A stretch of 36,592 nt of DNA from Bacilli bacterium (GTDB lineage: Bacteria; Bacillota_I; Bacilli_A; RF39; UBA660): the NCBI GenBank assembly GCA_017435465.1, contig JAFSEX010000062.1, forward strand, positions 1 to 36,592, in the 5' to 3' direction. Positions 1 to 20,697 of the stretch are shown one piece after another. The notes below the pieces were generated by a model. The model made no database searches. It was not told the DNA's origin and saw nothing but the letters and a program-made list of their open reading frames with translations. The translations under genes and the position numbers were made by a program. Numbering within the stretch: the first letter of the stretch is position 1; each line of letters begins with the position of its first letter.

Positions 1-181
1 CTATGTTTCACGTGGAACATTCCTTTATTGCACTTATCTTTTATTTATTCTTGTCTATGTTTCACGTGGAACATTCCTTTATTGCACTTATCTTTTATTT
101 ATTCTTGTCTATGTTTCACGTGGAACATTCCTTTATTGCACTTATCTTTTATTTATTCTTGTCTATGTTTCACGTGAAACA
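1..181. repeat. Tandem 54-bp repeat array, three full units plus a partial fourth
   Basis: Three consecutive, essentially identical 54-bp units begin at 1, 55 and 109; a fourth begins at 163 and diverges after its first 20 or so bases. Each unit starts with a parS-like 16-mer followed by a T-rich spacer of about 38 bp. Because 54 is a multiple of three, the repeat creates a spurious open frame of repeated 18-residue blocks, which I do not treat as a gene. The array may extend beyond the left edge of the window. Confidence 0.95.
4..181. promoter_or_regulatory. parS: Cluster of four parS centromere sites
   Basis: TGTTTCACGTGGAACA occurs at 4-19, 58-73 and 112-127. Its reverse complement is the B. 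subtilis parS consensus TGTTCCACGTGAAACA. The fourth site at 166-181, TGTTTCACGTGAAACA, is a perfect palindrome of the same family. ParB (Spo0J) loads at parS as a CTP-dependent clamp and recruits SMC near the origin. The cluster is about 9 kb from oriC, downstream of gyrA. No ParB with a typical parB context is encoded in the window, so the cognate ParB is presumably elsewhere. The match to consensus is direct observation; function is inferred. Confidence 0.93.
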
Positions 182-199
182 TTCTTTTGCTTAGTTAAA

Positions 200-5810: not shown

Positions 5811-5839
5811 AAAAATAAGCATTTTTAGCTTATTTTTTT
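5809..5839 (-). terminator. comK terminator
   Basis: On the minus strand AAAAAAATAAGC and GCTTATTTTTTT form a 12-bp stem with a 7-nt loop containing the comK stop codon. The descending arm supplies the T-run. The symmetry means it could also act on plus-strand transcripts. Confidence 0.75.
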
Positions 5840-6274
5840 CTTATTTCGAAATACTGATTCTAATCTTGTAGCACGAAGTACTTGATTATCTAATGAACCA
5901 TAGGAAATTGGTACTTGAAGTTCTATTCCACTATTAAACGAAATAATAGATTGTTCTTGAGATTTTTTATAATCTACAATATGTTTTAAAGCAATCCAAT
6001 AACAATCTAAAAGTCTTGGTGAATTTGTTGGAAAAAATATCATATTCCTACTTTCTTCAACAATAATTGGGGATTTGTAAGATATCCCAAGTAAATGTTT
6101 AGTGGCAGATTGTCTTCCTGAATATGAACTTCCAAAATAAAGGCAACTATAATCTATGATTTCCATTGGTGTATGATTGATAATAAATTCTCTATCTTTT
6201 TCTATAATTTTAGATTTTCCACCTTTTAATGGTACGATTGCTAAAGTATCTTCATTAATTTCATAATTTTCCAT
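5825..6274 (-). CDS. comK: ComK-like competence transcription factor
   Basis: ComK is the master activator of DNA-uptake genes in B. subtilis. This 149-aa protein aligns by eye along most of ComK: SKIIEKD near residue 20, the hallmark YFGSSYSGRQ near 46-55, then PIIVEESRN, IFFPTNSPR, and VPISYGSLDNQV near 124-135. The match to remembered B. subtilis blocks (FFGSSYAGRK, LPISYNSFENQV) is strong. It is about 40 residues shorter than the 192-aa B. subtilis protein. It ends shortly after the LESVF segment and so lacks the C-terminal tail carrying the MecA/ClpCP recognition region. The start at 6274 has a strong AGGGGG-type ribosome site. It lies between dnaN and recF on the same strand, bounded by terminators on both sides. 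Whether it still activates competence is inference. Confidence 0.9.
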   Translation of the reverse strand: MENYEINEDTLAIVPLKGGKSKIIEKDREFIINHTPMEIIDYSCLYFGSSYSGRQSATKHLLGISYKSPIIVEESRNMIFFPTNSPRLLDCYWIALKHIVDYKKSQEQSIISFNSGIELQVPISYGSLDNQVLRATRLESVFRNKKKIS

Positions 6275-7703: not shown

Positions 7704-9065
7704 TTATTTAATTTTTTCTACTAGTGTTTCAACCAAATTTTTTAACTGTTTATTTTCTTTTATTTCTAATTCAATTTTATCTACTGAATGTATGACTGTA
7801 GAATGATCTCTTCCACCAAACTCAATTCCTATTTTAGGAAATGATTCATCAGTAAGCTTTCTAGTTAAATACATCGCAATTTGTCTAGGATATGCAATAG
7901 ACGCATGTCTTTTCTTAGATTTAATATCTTCTACTGATATTTGATAGTAATCTGCAACTACTCTTTGTATTCTTTGTACACTATTTTTTGTTCCAATTGA
8001 TTTGTTTAAATAATCTTTTAAAGCATCAATTGCTAGGTCAAGTGTTATATCACTACCACTCATCATTGCAGAATATGCAAATAACCTAGTAACTGCTCCT
8101 TCTAATTGTCTAATGTCTGATTGACAAGTGTTAGCAATATACTCAATTACATCATTAGGTACATCACTAGTCATACCCTGTCCAGAAATCTTCTTAAGTA
8201 ATATTTCTTTTCTAAGTTCAAAATCTGGTGGGAATATATTTACTGAAAGTCCCCAACTAAATCTTGTTCTAAGTCTATCTTCCAGTATCTTTAAGTCATC
8301 TGGTGATCTATCAGATGATATAATAATTTGTTTATTATCATCATATAATTTATTAAAGGTATGGAAAAATTCCTGTTGTGTTTGTTGTGCACTACCTAAG
8401 AATTGAATATCATCAATTATTAAAACATCAATATTTCTATATTTATTTTTAAAATAATCAACATAATCAAAATTAGTACCATTACTATCCTTTTTATTAA
8501 TACCCAAAAAATCAGTAATAAATTGCTCACTAGTAACGTAAAGAACATTTTTACTTGTACTATTTGATATATAATTTCCAATTGCGTGCATTAAATGTGT
8601 TTTACCTAACCCACTTTTTCCATATATAAATAAAGGATTATACATTCTACCTGGGTTTTCTGCAACCGATAATGCTGCGGCATGTGCAAATCTATTACTT
8701 TCCCCTACTATAAAATTTTCAAATAAATACTTTGGATTTAAATTAGTTTCTAACTTAACTTTATTTGTTGGTACACCTATCATATCAACATCAATGTCTA
8801 TATCATTTTTATTATTTAACTCTTCTTCTAATATAAAATCGATTTCAAAGTTAGTACCAGTTACTAAATTTAAAGTATTCTCTATCATTTCACTATAGTT
8901 TTCAATAAGATGTTTCTTGTGTACATGCATTGGAACTAAAATTAAAGCTTTTCCATTATTTAGTTCAACAAGCTTAGTATCTTTAAACCATGTATCAAAT
9001 GCAAGTGATGTTATCTGTTCTTTTATATTTTGTAAAAAATTTGTCCAAATAATATTTACGTTCAT
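7704..9065 (-). CDS. dnaA: Chromosomal replication initiator DnaA
   Basis: AAA+ initiator (453 aa) that binds DnaA boxes and opens the origin. Domain I is the N-terminal 80 residues or so, and domain II is a short acidic linker (about 80-105). Domain III has Walker A GKSGLGKT (about 149-156) and Walker B VLIIDDIQFL. The domain IV DNA-binding signature is GGRDHSTVIHSV. The start at 9065 (ATG) is preferred: GGAGGTG at 9072-9078 is correctly spaced for it, whereas an in-frame TTG at 9080 overlaps that same ribosome site. It is the first gene leftward of oriC. Confidence 0.97.
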   Translation of the reverse strand: MNVNIIWTNFLQNIKEQITSLAFDTWFKDTKLVELNNGKALILVPMHVHKKHLIENYSEMIENTLNLVTGTNFEIDFILEEELNNKNDIDIDVDMIGVPTNKVKLETNLNPKYLFENFIVGESNRFAHAAALSVAENPGRMYNPLFIYGKSGLGKTHLMHAIGNYISNSTSKNVLYVTSEQFITDFLGINKKDSNGTNFDYVDYFKNKYRNIDVLIIDDIQFLGSAQQTQQEFFHTFNKLYDDNKQIIISSDRSPDDLKILEDRLRTRFSWGLSVNIFPPDFELRKEILLKKISGQGMTSDVPNDVIEYIANTCQSDIRQLEGAVTRLFAYSAMMSGSDITLDLAIDALKDYLNKSIGTKNSVQRIQRVVADYYQISVEDIKSKKRHASIAYPRQIAMYLTRKLTDESFPKIGIEFGGRDHSTVIHSVDKIELEIKENKQLKNLVETLVEKIK

Positions 9066-9360
9066 ACCATTCACCTCCAAACTAAATAATAACTAATATA
9101 ATCTTATTTTAAACTAATTCTGTGGAAAAGAAAACAAAAAATGACAAAAAAATTCAATAAACAACAAATAAACAGTTTTTTCCACAGGAAAATACATTAT
9201 TTTAATCAAATTTGATGAAGTTTTCCACAGATTGTGGATAAAATTAAGCACATATATGGATAACTTTTTGCACAATCCTGTGGAAAAAGTGGAAAACTTA
9301 ATCAAAATATTAAAAAATAGGATAAGTTTTCCACAGATGCCTGTTTATTTCCCAAAAAAT

Positions 9361-9378
9361 ATATTTCCCGGGAAATAT
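9361..9378. promoter_or_regulatory. Noc-binding site (NBS) palindrome inside oriC
   Basis: Perfect 18-bp palindrome ATATTTCCCGGGAAATAT. Its core at 9363-9376, ATTTCCCGGGAAAT, is identical to the 14-bp NBS consensus described for B. subtilis Noc. CCCGGG is very rare in such AT-rich DNA, and I saw no other copy in the window. It is about 25 bp from the last DnaA box and about 60 bp upstream of the ASCH gene start. Binding by the Noc encoded at 18341 is inferred. Confidence 0.85.
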
Positions 9379-9438: not shown

Positions 9439-9855
9439 ATGGAAGATTTAGTTCTAATATCTATAAAAACAAAATATGCTAATCAAATTTTTGATGGTAC
9501 TAAAATATATGAATATAGAAGAAAAAGTATTGGTGAAAAAAATTGTAATAAAAAAATTTTTGTTTATTCCTCTGAAAAAGAAAAAACGATTGTAGGTTAT
9601 ATAATTGTTGAAAAGATACTTGAAGGAAGTGTAGATTACATATTAGAAGTAACTAATAATAAGAATAATTCTGAAATTATTAATTATTTTAGTGGGTGTG
9701 ATAAGGGTTATGCGCTAAAAATTTCAAAAGCAGTTAAATATGAAAAGCCATTATCTTTAGAAGAAATTAAAAAACATGATAAAAAATTTGTTGTTCCACA
9801 ATTTTATCGTTATATAAAACAAAATGAATATATATATAATAAGTTAAAAATATAA
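9439..9855 (+). CDS. ASCH-domain (PUA-like) protein
   Basis: A 138-aa protein whose first 30 residues (LISIKTKYANQIFDGTKIYEYRRK) match the ASCH pattern: an SIKxxYAxxIxxGxKxxExRR-type block, then a beta-rich segment (KIFVYSSEKEKTIVGYI) and a C-terminal FYRYIKQ block. ASCH/PUA-like folds are thought to bind RNA or modified nucleotides; some relatives have hydrolase activity. It is the first gene rightward of oriC, divergent from dnaA, about 115 bp before rpmH. Specific function is unknown. Confidence 0.8.
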   Translation: MEDLVLISIKTKYANQIFDGTKIYEYRRKSIGEKNCNKKIFVYSSEKEKTIVGYIIVEKILEGSVDYILEVTNNKNNSEIINYFSGCDKGYALKISKAVKYEKPLSLEEIKKHDKKFVVPQFYRYIKQNEYIYNKLKI

Positions 9856-13009: not shown

Positions 13010-13714
13010 ATGAAAAGTTTAATTAAAAATTATAAAAAAGAATTTATAATAATGGGAATATTAATTGGATTAATATTAATAATATTTTTATTTCAAATAT
13101 TTCAATCAAAAGAAACTACTAATAAAATATTAGAAAATCATGATTATATAATTGAGAAAGAATCATTGAAAGAAGAAAATATTATTACGCATAGATTACC
13201 ATATATAAATTTAAATAATAAGGCTGCTGAATTAATAAATAAAGAAATTATTTCAAAATATTATTTATTAAAAGAAACTGAAAATAGTATTTTCGATTAT
13301 ACATACACTAAAACAGATGATATTATATCATTATTAATAACATCATCAATTTGCGAATATGGTGATTCATGTAAAGCTGAATATATTTCATATAATTTTG
13401 ATATCAAAAACAATAAATTATTAAATAATGAAGATTTATTGAATATGTATAATTATGATTTGGATATTATAGAAAAAACAATAAAAAATAAATTAAACGA
13501 ATATTACAATCATGAATTAACCAATAAATATATTGATAAAAATATGAGTTTTGAACAATATTTAAGTGATAGAAATATTGATGATTATAATGATGTGAAT
13601 ATTTATATAAATAAAGATAATAAAATTATAATTTATAAAACTTACACATTAAGTTCTGGTATAAGTATTGATGAAGAATTTATCTCTAATCCTTTTGAAT
13701 TTGAAATTAATTAG
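13010..13714 (+). CDS. Single-pass membrane protein, possibly DUF3298/RsiV-like extracellular domain
   Basis: A 234-aa protein. Residues about 12-32 form one membrane span after a basic N-terminus, so the rest is extracellular. The exported part (THRLPYINLNNKAAELINKEI, later YISYNFDIKNNKLLNNEDL) has the layout of DUF4163/DUF3298 domains found in RsiV and in cell-wall-associated proteins: an early conserved Pro-Asn-Ile-type strand, then a 'NxxSYNFD..LL...DL' region. This is a tentative match. It likely shares an operon with the upstream peptidase, which suggests an envelope role. A terminator follows directly. Confidence 0.6.
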   Translation: MKSLIKNYKKEFIIMGILIGLILIIFLFQIFQSKETTNKILENHDYIIEKESLKEENIITHRLPYINLNNKAAELINKEIISKYYLLKETENSIFDYTYTKTDDIISLLITSSICEYGDSCKAEYISYNFDIKNNKLLNNEDLLNMYNYDLDIIEKTIKNKLNEYYNHELTNKYIDKNMSFEQYLSDRNIDDYNDVNIYINKDNKIIIYKTYTLSSGISIDEEFISNPFEFEIN

Positions 13715-17471: not shown

Positions 17472-18176
17472 ATGTCTGAAATAGAATTTTTAAATGCCTT
17501 AAAAGATATAAATATAATTTTAACTAATGACCAACTTGAACAATTAAATACTTATTATGAATTATTAATTGAATATAATAAAGTTATGAATTTAACTGGA
17601 ATTACAGATAAAAAAGATGTATATTTAAAACATTTTTATGATTCATTAACTTTAAATAAAATTATTGATTTAACTAGTATTGATACATTATGTGATATAG
17701 GAACAGGGGCAGGATTTCCTGGAGTAGTTTTGAAAATTGTATTTCCTAATTTAAAAATAACATTAGTTGATTCATTAAATAAAAGAATTAACTTCTTAAA
17801 CACTGTTATAGATAATTTAAAATTAGAAAATATAGAAGCGATTCACGAAAGAGCAGAAGTATTCTCAATAAATAATATTGAAAAATATGATGTTATAACA
17901 GCTCGTGCAGTTGCGAAATTAAATATCCTATTAGAATTATCAGTTCAAGCAATCAAAATAAATGGATATTTTATTGCAATGAAATCTAATGTTGAAGAAG
18001 AAATAAATAATATTGATAAAACTTTAGAAAAATTAAAGTGTAAATTTATTAATAAAATAGAATTTAAACTTCCTATTGAAAATAGTAATAGAACACTAGT
18101 TAGAATAGAAAAACTAGATAAAACTCCAAGTACTTATCCAAGAAAATTTGAACAAATTAAAAAGAAACCGTTGTAA
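17472..18176 (+). CDS. rsmG: 16S rRNA (guanine527-N7)-methyltransferase
   Basis: A 234-aa Rossmann-fold methyltransferase that modifies G527 of 16S rRNA using SAM. The SAM-binding motif is DIGTGAGFPG (residues 75-84), preceded by the family block KVMNLTG and followed by VDSLNKRINFL. Loss of this enzyme gives low-level streptomycin resistance in several bacteria. It is the last gene of the mnmE operon; a terminator overlaps its stop. Confidence 0.95.
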   Translation: MSEIEFLNALKDINIILTNDQLEQLNTYYELLIEYNKVMNLTGITDKKDVYLKHFYDSLTLNKIIDLTSIDTLCDIGTGAGFPGVVLKIVFPNLKITLVDSLNKRINFLNTVIDNLKLENIEAIHERAEVFSINNIEKYDVITARAVAKLNILLELSVQAIKINGYFIAMKSNVEEEINNIDKTLEKLKCKFINKIEFKLPIENSNRTLVRIEKLDKTPSTYPRKFEQIKKKPL

Positions 18177-18322: not shown

Positions 18323-18338
18323 TAAGGAGGGGTCCTTA
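18323..18338 (+). promoter_or_regulatory. Hairpin over the noc ribosome binding site
   Basis: TAAGGA (18323-18328), loop GGGG, TCCTTA (18333-18338). Half of the noc Shine-Dalgarno AAGGAGG (18324-18330) is in the stem and half in the loop. The start codon follows at 18341. Confidence 0.55.
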
Positions 18339-18340
18339 AC

Positions 18341-19858
18341 ATGAAAGGTGAAATTAATTATGTTAATGTTTCTGACATAATTCCTAACAGATTTCAACCA
18401 AGAAAAAACTTTAATCAGGATGAATTACAAGAATTAGCAGAATCAATTAAACAACATGGTATAATTCAACCATTAGTTTTAAGAAGGCTAGGAGATAAAT
18501 ATGAAATTATAGCCGGTGAACGTAGATTTAAAGCTGCTAATATTGTTGGACTAAGGGAAGTCCCTTCTATTATTATGGATTTAGATGATGTAAAAAGCGC
18601 TGAAATTGCTTTAGCAGAAAATATCCAAAGAAAAGATTTAACTGCAATAGAAAAAGCAAAATCATATAAACAAATTTTAGGACTAGGTCAAATGACTCAA
18701 GAAGAACTTGCTAAAAGAATGGGAAAAAGTCAACCAGCTGTTTCTAATATGTTAAGATTATTAGATTTAAGTGATGAAGTTCAACAAGCATTATTAAATA
18801 ATAAAATATCTGAAAGGCATGCTAGAAGTTTGCTTGCACTTAAAGATAATCCTCAAAAACAAATCGAAATGTTAAATCAAATAATAGAAAAAAGAATGAC
18901 AGTAAGGGAAACTGATTTAGCAATTAAGGAAGCATTATCAAATAATACTAATAATGTTAATAATGATGATGATATAGAAGAAATAATTGATTTTGGAAAT
19001 TCTAATAATGATGAATTCATTATTGAGGATATTCCTAACAATTCTACACAAAATAATGAAGAAGAAATAGGAACAATTAGTTTAGAGGGTACAATTGATA
19101 CACCAAACGATATTAAAGAACAAATCAATAATATACCACCTGTACCAAGTATTCCTGATTTTGATCAAATAAGTATAAACGAGCCAAATAATATAGAACC
19201 AATAAATAATGAAAATAGTAATAAAATATTAAATTTAGATGATGAGGAGGCAAACATGAATATGGGAAATGAAAACAATCAAAATAATTTTAATAATTTC
19301 ATGAATATACCAGATAACGTACAGCCACCAATTCAACTTGATGGACCTCCTGTAAACAATGGTATAGAGCCAGTACAAGATCAAAATAATTTTGGTAATC
19401 CAAATCCACAAATGGTACCAGAACAATCTCCTATGTATCAACAACCACAACAAATGATGCCACAACAACAAATGTACCAATATCCTAATCAACAAATGAT
19501 GCAAAATCCAAATCAAATGTATCAATATCCAAACCAACAACCAATGGTAGATCCAAATATGGTGTATCCAATGCAACAACAAATGTACCAATATCCAACC
19601 CAACAATCAATGATAGATCCAAATATTGGATACCAACCACAACCAATGCAAGATCCTGCCTTTACTATGCCACAACAACAAGAACAACCACAAGAGGATG
19701 TTGGTCCACAAGCAATGATAATGCAACAAGATATTACGGGCGCAGTTGCAGTTATTAGAAATACTATAATGAATTTACAAAATAATGGATATATGATAGA
19801 AATAAATGAAAATGATTTAGCAGGTGCTTATCAAATAAATATTAGTATTAGAAAATAA
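18341..19858 (+). CDS. noc: Nucleoid occlusion protein Noc, with long Q/N/P-rich insert
   Basis: A ParB-family CTP-dependent DNA clamp (505 aa; B. subtilis Noc is about 280). The N-terminal domain starts at once (IIPNRFQPR at residues 13-21) and has the CTP motifs GERR (59-62) and ENIQR (93-97). In the helix-turn-helix (MGKSQPAVSNMLRLL), Gln131 and Arg159 of ERHAR match Noc rather than ParB at two reported specificity positions. The place of Noc's usual Lys is Met137. Residues about 200-463 are low complexity: acidic/Asn-rich, then Gln/Pro/Met/Tyr-rich with QMYQYP three times (377, 392, 414). The last 43 residues resemble the Noc dimerisation domain. Position after rsmG fits noc. The N-terminal membrane-targeting helix of B. 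subtilis Noc is absent. Standalone ParB is the alternative. Confidence 0.85.
   Translation: MKGEINYVNVSDIIPNRFQPRKNFNQDELQELAESIKQHGIIQPLVLRRLGDKYEIIAGERRFKAANIVGLREVPSIIMDLDDVKSAEIALAENIQRKDLTAIEKAKSYKQILGLGQMTQEELAKRMGKSQPAVSNMLRLLDLSDEVQQALLNNKISERHARSLLALKDNPQKQIEMLNQIIEKRMTVRETDLAIKEALSNNTNNVNNDDDIEEIIDFGNSNNDEFIIEDIPNNSTQNNEEEIGTISLEGTIDTPNDIKEQINNIPPVPSIPDFDQISINEPNNIEPINNENSNKILNLDDEEANMNMGNENNQNNFNNFMNIPDNVQPPIQLDGPPVNNGIEPVQDQNNFGNPNPQMVPEQSPMYQQPQQMMPQQQMYQYPNQQMMQNPNQMYQYPNQQPMVDPNMVYPMQQQMYQYPTQQSMIDPNIGYQPQPMQDPAFTMPQQQEQPQEDVGPQAMIMQQDITGAVAVIRNTIMNLQNNGYMIEINENDLAGAYQINISIRK
19245..19258 (+). promoter_or_regulatory. Possible internal translation start in noc
   Basis: A perfect AGGAGG (19245-19250) lies 5 nt before an in-frame ATG (19256, codon 306). 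Initiation there would make a 200-residue product with the Q-rich region and the C-terminal dimerisation domain but no DNA-binding domain. The motif uses GAG codons where this genome strongly prefers GAA. Confidence 0.45.
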
Positions 19859-19974: not shown

Positions 19975-20697
19975 ATGGATAACAACAAAAAAAATGTAGA
20001 AAGGATAGGAAATAAAATATCTGAATTATTAAATAGTGAAGTAAAAGAAATAAAATTAGGAAATGTTGAATCAAAAATAAATTTAGCAAATGACATTGAT
20101 CTTACTTTTAAACACTGCTATAACAAAATTACAGATTTATGGATACGATATTTATCTGAAGAAAAAACACGCATGGATTTACATAAAATAAATTTTAGTT
20201 ACTATAATAGTAAACGCCCACGATATATACATACAGAGATATACAGAAATATAAATAATGATATTAGATATTCTGGAAATAGTTTTGTTCGTTTTTATAA
20301 ACCATATTTTTCACATAGAGCTAGAATGGAACCATTCACTACATGTAAAAAAACAAATGACAAATTATATTTATCGTTCAAAACAAAAAGAGAAAAATAT
20401 GATTATACTATGACTTATTCAGAACAAACTAATATTGATGATTTAATTATTAATAATCCATCTAAAGATATTAGTATATATAATTCTAAAGCTTTCCATG
20501 AATTAATTGATTATATTTATGAATTAAAAAAATATTATAAATTTCATAAATGTGAAATAGATGATATTATAAAATGTATTTTATTTCAAAGAGAATTTGA
20601 TAAAAGTTTATTTAATAATTTTGTGGAAATTGCAAAAACATCAAATCCAAAAAACGAAAAATTACTTGTATTTAAAAATGACAATAAATTTGGATAA
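19975..20697 (+). CDS. Hypothetical protein
   Basis: A 240-aa soluble protein that I do not recognise. It is Lys/Asn/Tyr-rich, with no signal peptide or membrane span. A basic, aromatic central part (SYYNSKRPRYIHTEIYRN, residues about 74-90) is followed by a helical C-terminal half with a short Cys-containing stretch (KFHKCEIDDIIKCILF). It has its own promoter and terminator, so it is transcribed alone, convergent with the penicillin-binding protein gene. The start is supported by AAGAGTGAT just upstream. Confidence 0.6.
   Translation: MDNNKKNVERIGNKISELLNSEVKEIKLGNVESKINLANDIDLTFKHCYNKITDLWIRYLSEEKTRMDLHKINFSYYNSKRPRYIHTEIYRNINNDIRYSGNSFVRFYKPYFSHRARMEPFTTCKKTNDKLYLSFKTKREKYDYTMTYSEQTNIDDLIINNPSKDISIYNSKAFHELIDYIYELKKYYKFHKCEIDDIIKCILFQREFDKSLFNNFVEIAKTSNPKNEKLLVFKNDNKFG

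Follow-up and report, generated by a model that had tools for sequence, protein, structure and literature searches.

Noc is the textbook example of how a duplicate of ParB acquired a new binding site and a membrane function. In the family of the Bacilli bacterium considered here (GTDB lineage Bacteria; Bacillota_I; Bacilli_A; RF39; UBA660), made up of uncultured Bacilli from the gut, the Noc orthologue has probably been re-deployed, from a chromosome-wide division inhibitor that tethers DNA to the membrane to an origin-confined DNA clamp acting beside ParB. The analysis started from the noc gene (18341..19858, forward strand) of contig JAFSEX010000062.1 (NCBI GenBank assembly GCA_017435465.1), whose 36,592 nucleotides are referred to below as the window. 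The gene encodes a Noc-clade ParB paralogue of 505 amino acids (aa) from an ATG start, directly after rsmG. To judge from sequence, the protein has an intact cytidine triphosphate (CTP) fold and a DNA-binding domain of the type that reads Noc-binding sites (NBS); it has lost the membrane helix and acquired a long acidic linker, predicted to be disordered and carrying motifs, and the sites are confined to oriC and parS. Two samples were compared: a first set of 35 Noc proteins, drawn from the host family and covering 33 genera, and a second set of 80 Noc proteins from named gut Bacilli metagenome-assembled genomes (MAGs; rabbit, ruminants, and chicken), including Candidatus Coprovivens and Candidatus Ventrenecus.

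Noc Identity

Phylogeny and diagnostic residues indicate that the window protein is Noc by descent, a true orthologue, as a first-pass annotation made from the window letters had proposed. In a tree of 47 sequences, ParB stands apart (support 100/100), the Noc side is equally well supported (100/100), and the family Noc proteins form one branch (97/96). The top PDB matches of the protein are solved Noc structures, and its score against the NCBIfam model TIGR04285 (nucleoid_noc) is 274 bits, under the curated cut-off of 315. The two residues that read the NBS, Q173 and R201 (PMC7383237), are both found in the window Noc and are kept in 34/35 and 35/35 of the family proteins, respectively. The GERR and ENxxR motifs occur in all 35, and CTP binding is predicted. 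An assignment to ParB (Spo0J) was rejected on the basis of the tree, the presence of Q and R instead of R173 and G201, and a separate parA-parB pair in the same genome (contig C52), which also has SMC. The position of noc is classical, after mnmE, mnmG, and rsmG (17472..18176, +), its canonical neighbour, and approximately 9 kb from dnaA.

Loss of the Membrane Helix and Growth of the Linker

The membrane-targeting sequence is required in B. subtilis (PMC4331003). The corresponding helix is absent from the window Noc and from all 35 and 80 family proteins: at least three F, W, or L residues within the first 10 positions were found in 0/35 and 0/80 family proteins versus 4/6 from other families of the class. 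In the window, the ribosome-binding site AAGGAGGGG (18324..18332, +) overlaps an in-frame TAA (18323-18325) located 6 codons upstream of the start, and the frame in between reads only GGA GGG GTC CTT AAC. Since this leaves no space for an N-terminal helix, an alternative upstream start that would supply one was discarded. The absence of the helix, already noted in the first-pass annotation, is confirmed and is family-wide. By Pfam, aa 4-96 belong to ParB_N and aa 98-198 to HTH_ParB; in an AlphaFold2 model built with 34 relatives, the ParB fold sets in at once, its first strand starting at residue 5.

Two regions are modelled with confidence, aa 1-204 and 463-505 (block pLDDT mostly 77-96). They comprise the N-terminal CTP-binding domain (aa 1-96, 18341..18628, +), with the GERR and ENxxR motifs, the helix-turn-helix DNA-binding domain (DBD; aa 98-204, 18632..18952, +), with Q, M, D, and R at Caulobacter positions 173, 179, 184, and 201, and the C-terminal dimerisation domain (CTD; aa 463-505, 19727..19855, +), made of one helix and two strands. 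Between the DBD and the CTD lies a linker of 258 aa (aa 205-462, 18953..19726, +; net charge about -36) that is predicted to be disordered, with pLDDT mostly below 50 and no predicted secondary structure, and that substantiates the low-complexity insert noted at first sight. Its first half is rich in N, D, E, and I (N 24%, I 16%, E+D 22%), and its second half in Q (27%), P (18%), M (13%), and Y (7%), including a genus-specific stretch with three QMYQYP copies (19408..19700, +). It has the lowest complexity among the 22 open reading frames (ORFs) of the window, with a maximum Q+N+P+M fraction per 60 aa of 0.80 versus 0.35 or less elsewhere.

Long linkers are a property of the family and not a local expansion, a possibility which was ruled out because none of the family relatives read has a Noc of normal length. 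The linkers measure 88-463 aa (median 212) in the first set and 56-461 aa (median 156) in the second, while six Noc proteins taken for comparison from elsewhere in the class have a total length of 260-282 aa. Net linker charge, computed for the 35-protein set, ranges from -10 to -73, acidic in every case; the CTD is kept in nearly all and seemingly missing in one sequence (G012). The DBD-CTD linker of ParB, which borders the compartment enclosing DNA once the CTP clamp has closed, is "invariably ~20" aa long and enriched in lysine, features whose significance is unknown according to the study that describes them (PMC8367383). Neither the 258 aa of the window nor the 56-463 aa of the family agree with the ~20-aa linker of ParB/Noc clamps, and this part of the protein corresponds to the DNA-holding compartment of ParB clamps, whose linker is near-constant in length and lysine-rich. 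No prior report of a disordered or long-linker Noc was found in the literature searched.

Within these variable linkers, ungapped motif searches, compared with shuffled linkers at the same widths, detected two conserved motifs, A (score 783) and C (score 633; shuffled linkers 395 at most). Motif A, D[IV]DxIxxxAxDI, matches as a regular expression in 22/34 linkers (shuffled mean 0.1), and motif C has the family form [RK]FFNFLxDExxNM[DN]; both recur in the consensus of a 35-row alignment drawn mostly from the second set. The window linker contains motif C (NKILNLDDEEANMNMG, 19220..19267, +) and no clear motif A.

Distribution of the Noc-Binding Sites

The published NBS is a 16-bp sequence. Its exact 12-mer core, TTTCCCGGGAAA, was searched in 37 family genomes, the genome of the window included, with the reversed sequence as control. 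A total of 89 sites were found in 32/37 genomes, and none for the control in any of them; sites within one genome are not independent. Each flanking base of the 16-mer TATTTCCCGGGAAATA recurs at 85-89 of these 89 sites. Around noc in the 80-locus set, 622 kb contained 11 further NBS versus 0 for seven control palindromes. Chance matches are excluded by the zero counts of both kinds of control.

Almost all of these sites (87/89) are no more than 10 kb away from an origin-cluster gene (noc-dnaA-gyrA) or a parS, and in 30 of the 32 site-bearing genomes every exact site is at the origin. Forty-three of the 89 are at most 200 bp from a parS, and in 12 genomes an NBS comes to within 120 bp of one. 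Most family NBS sit inside the parS array that follows gyrA, or close to it, and not at promoters. Just past gyrA, NBS and parS alternate in a single array in G024 (~79-bp spacing), G006 (66 bp), and G016, and also in G196, from another sample, and one-mismatch NBS-like sites take part in alternating arrays in G010 and G015. No description of such alternation within one array was found in the literature searched. One-mismatch sites in twelve family genomes revealed no scattered set. In the sole family Noc with V for Q173 (G035), no exact NBS was found, and locus L186 (G035:C20, ~555-1580) carries a parS-like array with the variant palindrome ATGTTACACGTGTAACAT; this single case is suggestive of a co-loss of the residue and its site. 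In B. subtilis and S. aureus, NBS are dispersed over much of the chromosome, the ter region excepted (PMC7383237, PMC5540599); parS lies near oriC (PMC7383237), and of 41 SaNoc loci reported in S. aureus a single one falls outside +/-700 kb (PMC5540599). In the class, G091, from a comparison family in which the members sampled retain the membrane-targeting sequence, has 12 exact NBS on at least 8 contigs.

In the window, the NBS TATTTCCCGGGAAATA (9362..9377) is located ~27 bp past the last of the six DnaA boxes of oriC (9121..9335), which lie between it and dnaA (7704..9080, -). The site occupies the same oriC intergenic region in both congeners (G001 and G002). The genome of the window has no other core site, whether exact or with one mismatch, and the 15 two-mismatch sites compare with 11 for the control. 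Beyond the gyrA end, at the contig edge, there is a tandem array of 54-bp repeats (1..188) that contains four parS sites, and its repeat unit has no NBS inside; because the contig breaks in this array, further NBS may be missing from the assembly.

Proposed Function and Alternative Explanations

Chromosome-wide membrane occlusion is unlikely in this family because there is no anchor and the sites are found only at the origin. For the same reasons, Noc would more plausibly serve to organise the origin, to act with ParB and SMC in segregation, or to control initiation, a function reported for Noc of S. aureus; each of these is more likely than membrane-based nucleoid occlusion. In mechanistic terms, Noc would be loaded at NBS near the DnaA boxes or parS, close as a CTP clamp and spread over the origin DNA, while the long linker would greatly enlarge the compartment in which DNA is held. 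A linker of 56-463 residues, acidic in the 35 proteins for which charge was computed, should alter the hold of the clamp on DNA, or its sliding, and leaves room for motifs that would recruit a partner, for which candidates are the replication initiator, SMC, and proteins of the divisome. More tentatively, and with slightly more doubt than confidence, Noc could be regarded as a second centromere-binding clamp throughout the family; at the alternating NBS/parS arrays, Noc would load next to ParB on origin DNA, its acidic compartment would be ~10 times the published linker length, and the linker motifs would recruit a partner.

It is important to note that several points weigh against an origin-confined clamp. 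In a Caulobacter ParB background, one of the lysines 179/184 is required, and these were reported as permissive for NBS reading (PMC7383237). K179 is present in 32/35 family Noc proteins, and the window genus has lost both lysines, with M (window) or T (both congeners) at position 179 and D at position 184 in all three, so that it is uncertain whether Noc of this species binds NBS; the loss may be offset by other changes or may have altered the binding. Two NBS are exceptional in their location, one in G017, 104 kb from the parS on its contig, and one in G018, unplaced. Exact-motif counts miss degenerate NBS, which could still be bound elsewhere, and nearly all genomes are fragmented MAGs in which tandem arrays break contigs, so that the NBS counts are minima. 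Other families of the class likewise have few exact NBS, and for this reason the contrast with dispersed sites rests on the published species and one class member, G091. In addition, a role of Noc in division placement near the origin is possible in the absence of MinC: no MinC_C match was obtained in 40 relatives (family and class members sampled), while controls including B. subtilis and E. coli matched as expected.

This last result, which leaves a spatial division regulator wanting, also bears on an explanation that we consider unlikely, namely that nucleoid occlusion has been kept at the origin only and that the membrane is reached through the linker, motif C being either a relocated anchor or a binder of a membrane or divisome protein. 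Origin-proximal NBS would fit an occlusion of division near segregated origins, and motif C is conserved, begins with K/R-F-F in many members and, as [RK]FFNFL, resembles the Noc membrane helix. However, the motif is acidic (net charge -2 to -3) and the window genus lacks the FF pair (NKILNLDD, NNYVNLDN), which makes a relocated helix a weak idea, and its conserved portion is the polar DExxNM[DN] end, suggesting a protein partner over lipid. The proposal of the first-pass annotation that the low-complexity linker replaces membrane attachment by driving phase separation or prion-like clustering of Noc-DNA complexes appears improbable. The predicted disorder and the Q/N/P/M/Y-rich repeats of the window genus do agree with it, and to that extent the composition described there holds; nonetheless, these repeats are limited to the genus (Y 4-7% and M 7% in G000-G002; mostly Y 0-3% in other members), while all 35 family linkers measured are acidic, with short motifs in many, and linkers outside the genus have few aromatics and go down to 56 aa; the prion-like composition is not supported as a general explanation. 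Strong negative charge would also tend to oppose clustering on DNA. The origin-confined NBS, invisible to the first-pass annotation, bear more directly on function than linker composition.

A local transcriptional role, in which Noc would regulate dnaA, noc and their neighbours in the manner of KorB or VirB, is still less probable. It is suggested by NBS upstream of dnaA in the window, G001, and G002, and by others that fall within rsmG or closely precede noc in G003, G005, G008, and G032 (L034, L036, L039, and L061), where autoregulation is possible; the location of most NBS in or near the parS array past gyrA, and the multi-copy arrays themselves, are better suited to a centromere. Finally, neutral decay, with the function of Noc being lost and its linker drifting, would account for the high variability in linker length (56-463 aa) and the missing permissive lysines of the window genus, but it is hardly credible given that the CTP motifs (35/35), the CTD in nearly all members, the NBS at the origin, and the linker motifs are all conserved.

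Comparison With Known Systems

The Noc proteins of B. subtilis and G. thermoleovorans (TIGR04285) share with the window protein the CTP fold, the helix-turn-helix with Q173 and R201, the CTD, the 16-bp NBS, and the gene position after rsmG near oriC. In contrast to them, the window Noc has no membrane helix, an acidic, disordered linker of 258 aa where theirs is short, and origin-confined instead of chromosome-wide NBS. S. aureus Noc is likewise an NBS reader, with a published role in restricting replication initiation (PMC5540599) that invites comparison with the NBS at oriC of the window; unlike it, the window Noc lacks the helix and has 1 exact site in its genome (1-20 where present in the family). 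With chromosomal ParB (Spo0J) it has in common a CTP clamp loading near the origin, here predicted, and NBS in or beside parS arrays, and it differs in the Q/R versus R/G specificity residues, the far longer linker, and the presence of a separate parA-parB pair. As far as their descriptions go, KorB and VirB are also ParB-like clamps reused for another function, although plasmid-borne and with different sites.

The family keeps the site specificity of Noc but has neither the membrane anchor nor the chromosome-wide spread of sites. This combination takes the two parts of the occlusion model apart and provides a natural test of Noc action without a membrane anchor.

Other Features of the Window

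An Rfam scan of the window gave no matches. The ORFs at 13010-13714 (+) and 19975-20697 (+) had no Pfam or NCBIfam match where tested. Between oriC and rnpA there is an ORF with a weak ASCH domain (9439-9855, +), not detected at that place in two congeners. Between recF and dnaN, positions 5825-6274 (-) encode a ComK-family protein (Pfam PF06338, E 1e-44), and a similar-sized gap is present there in relatives.
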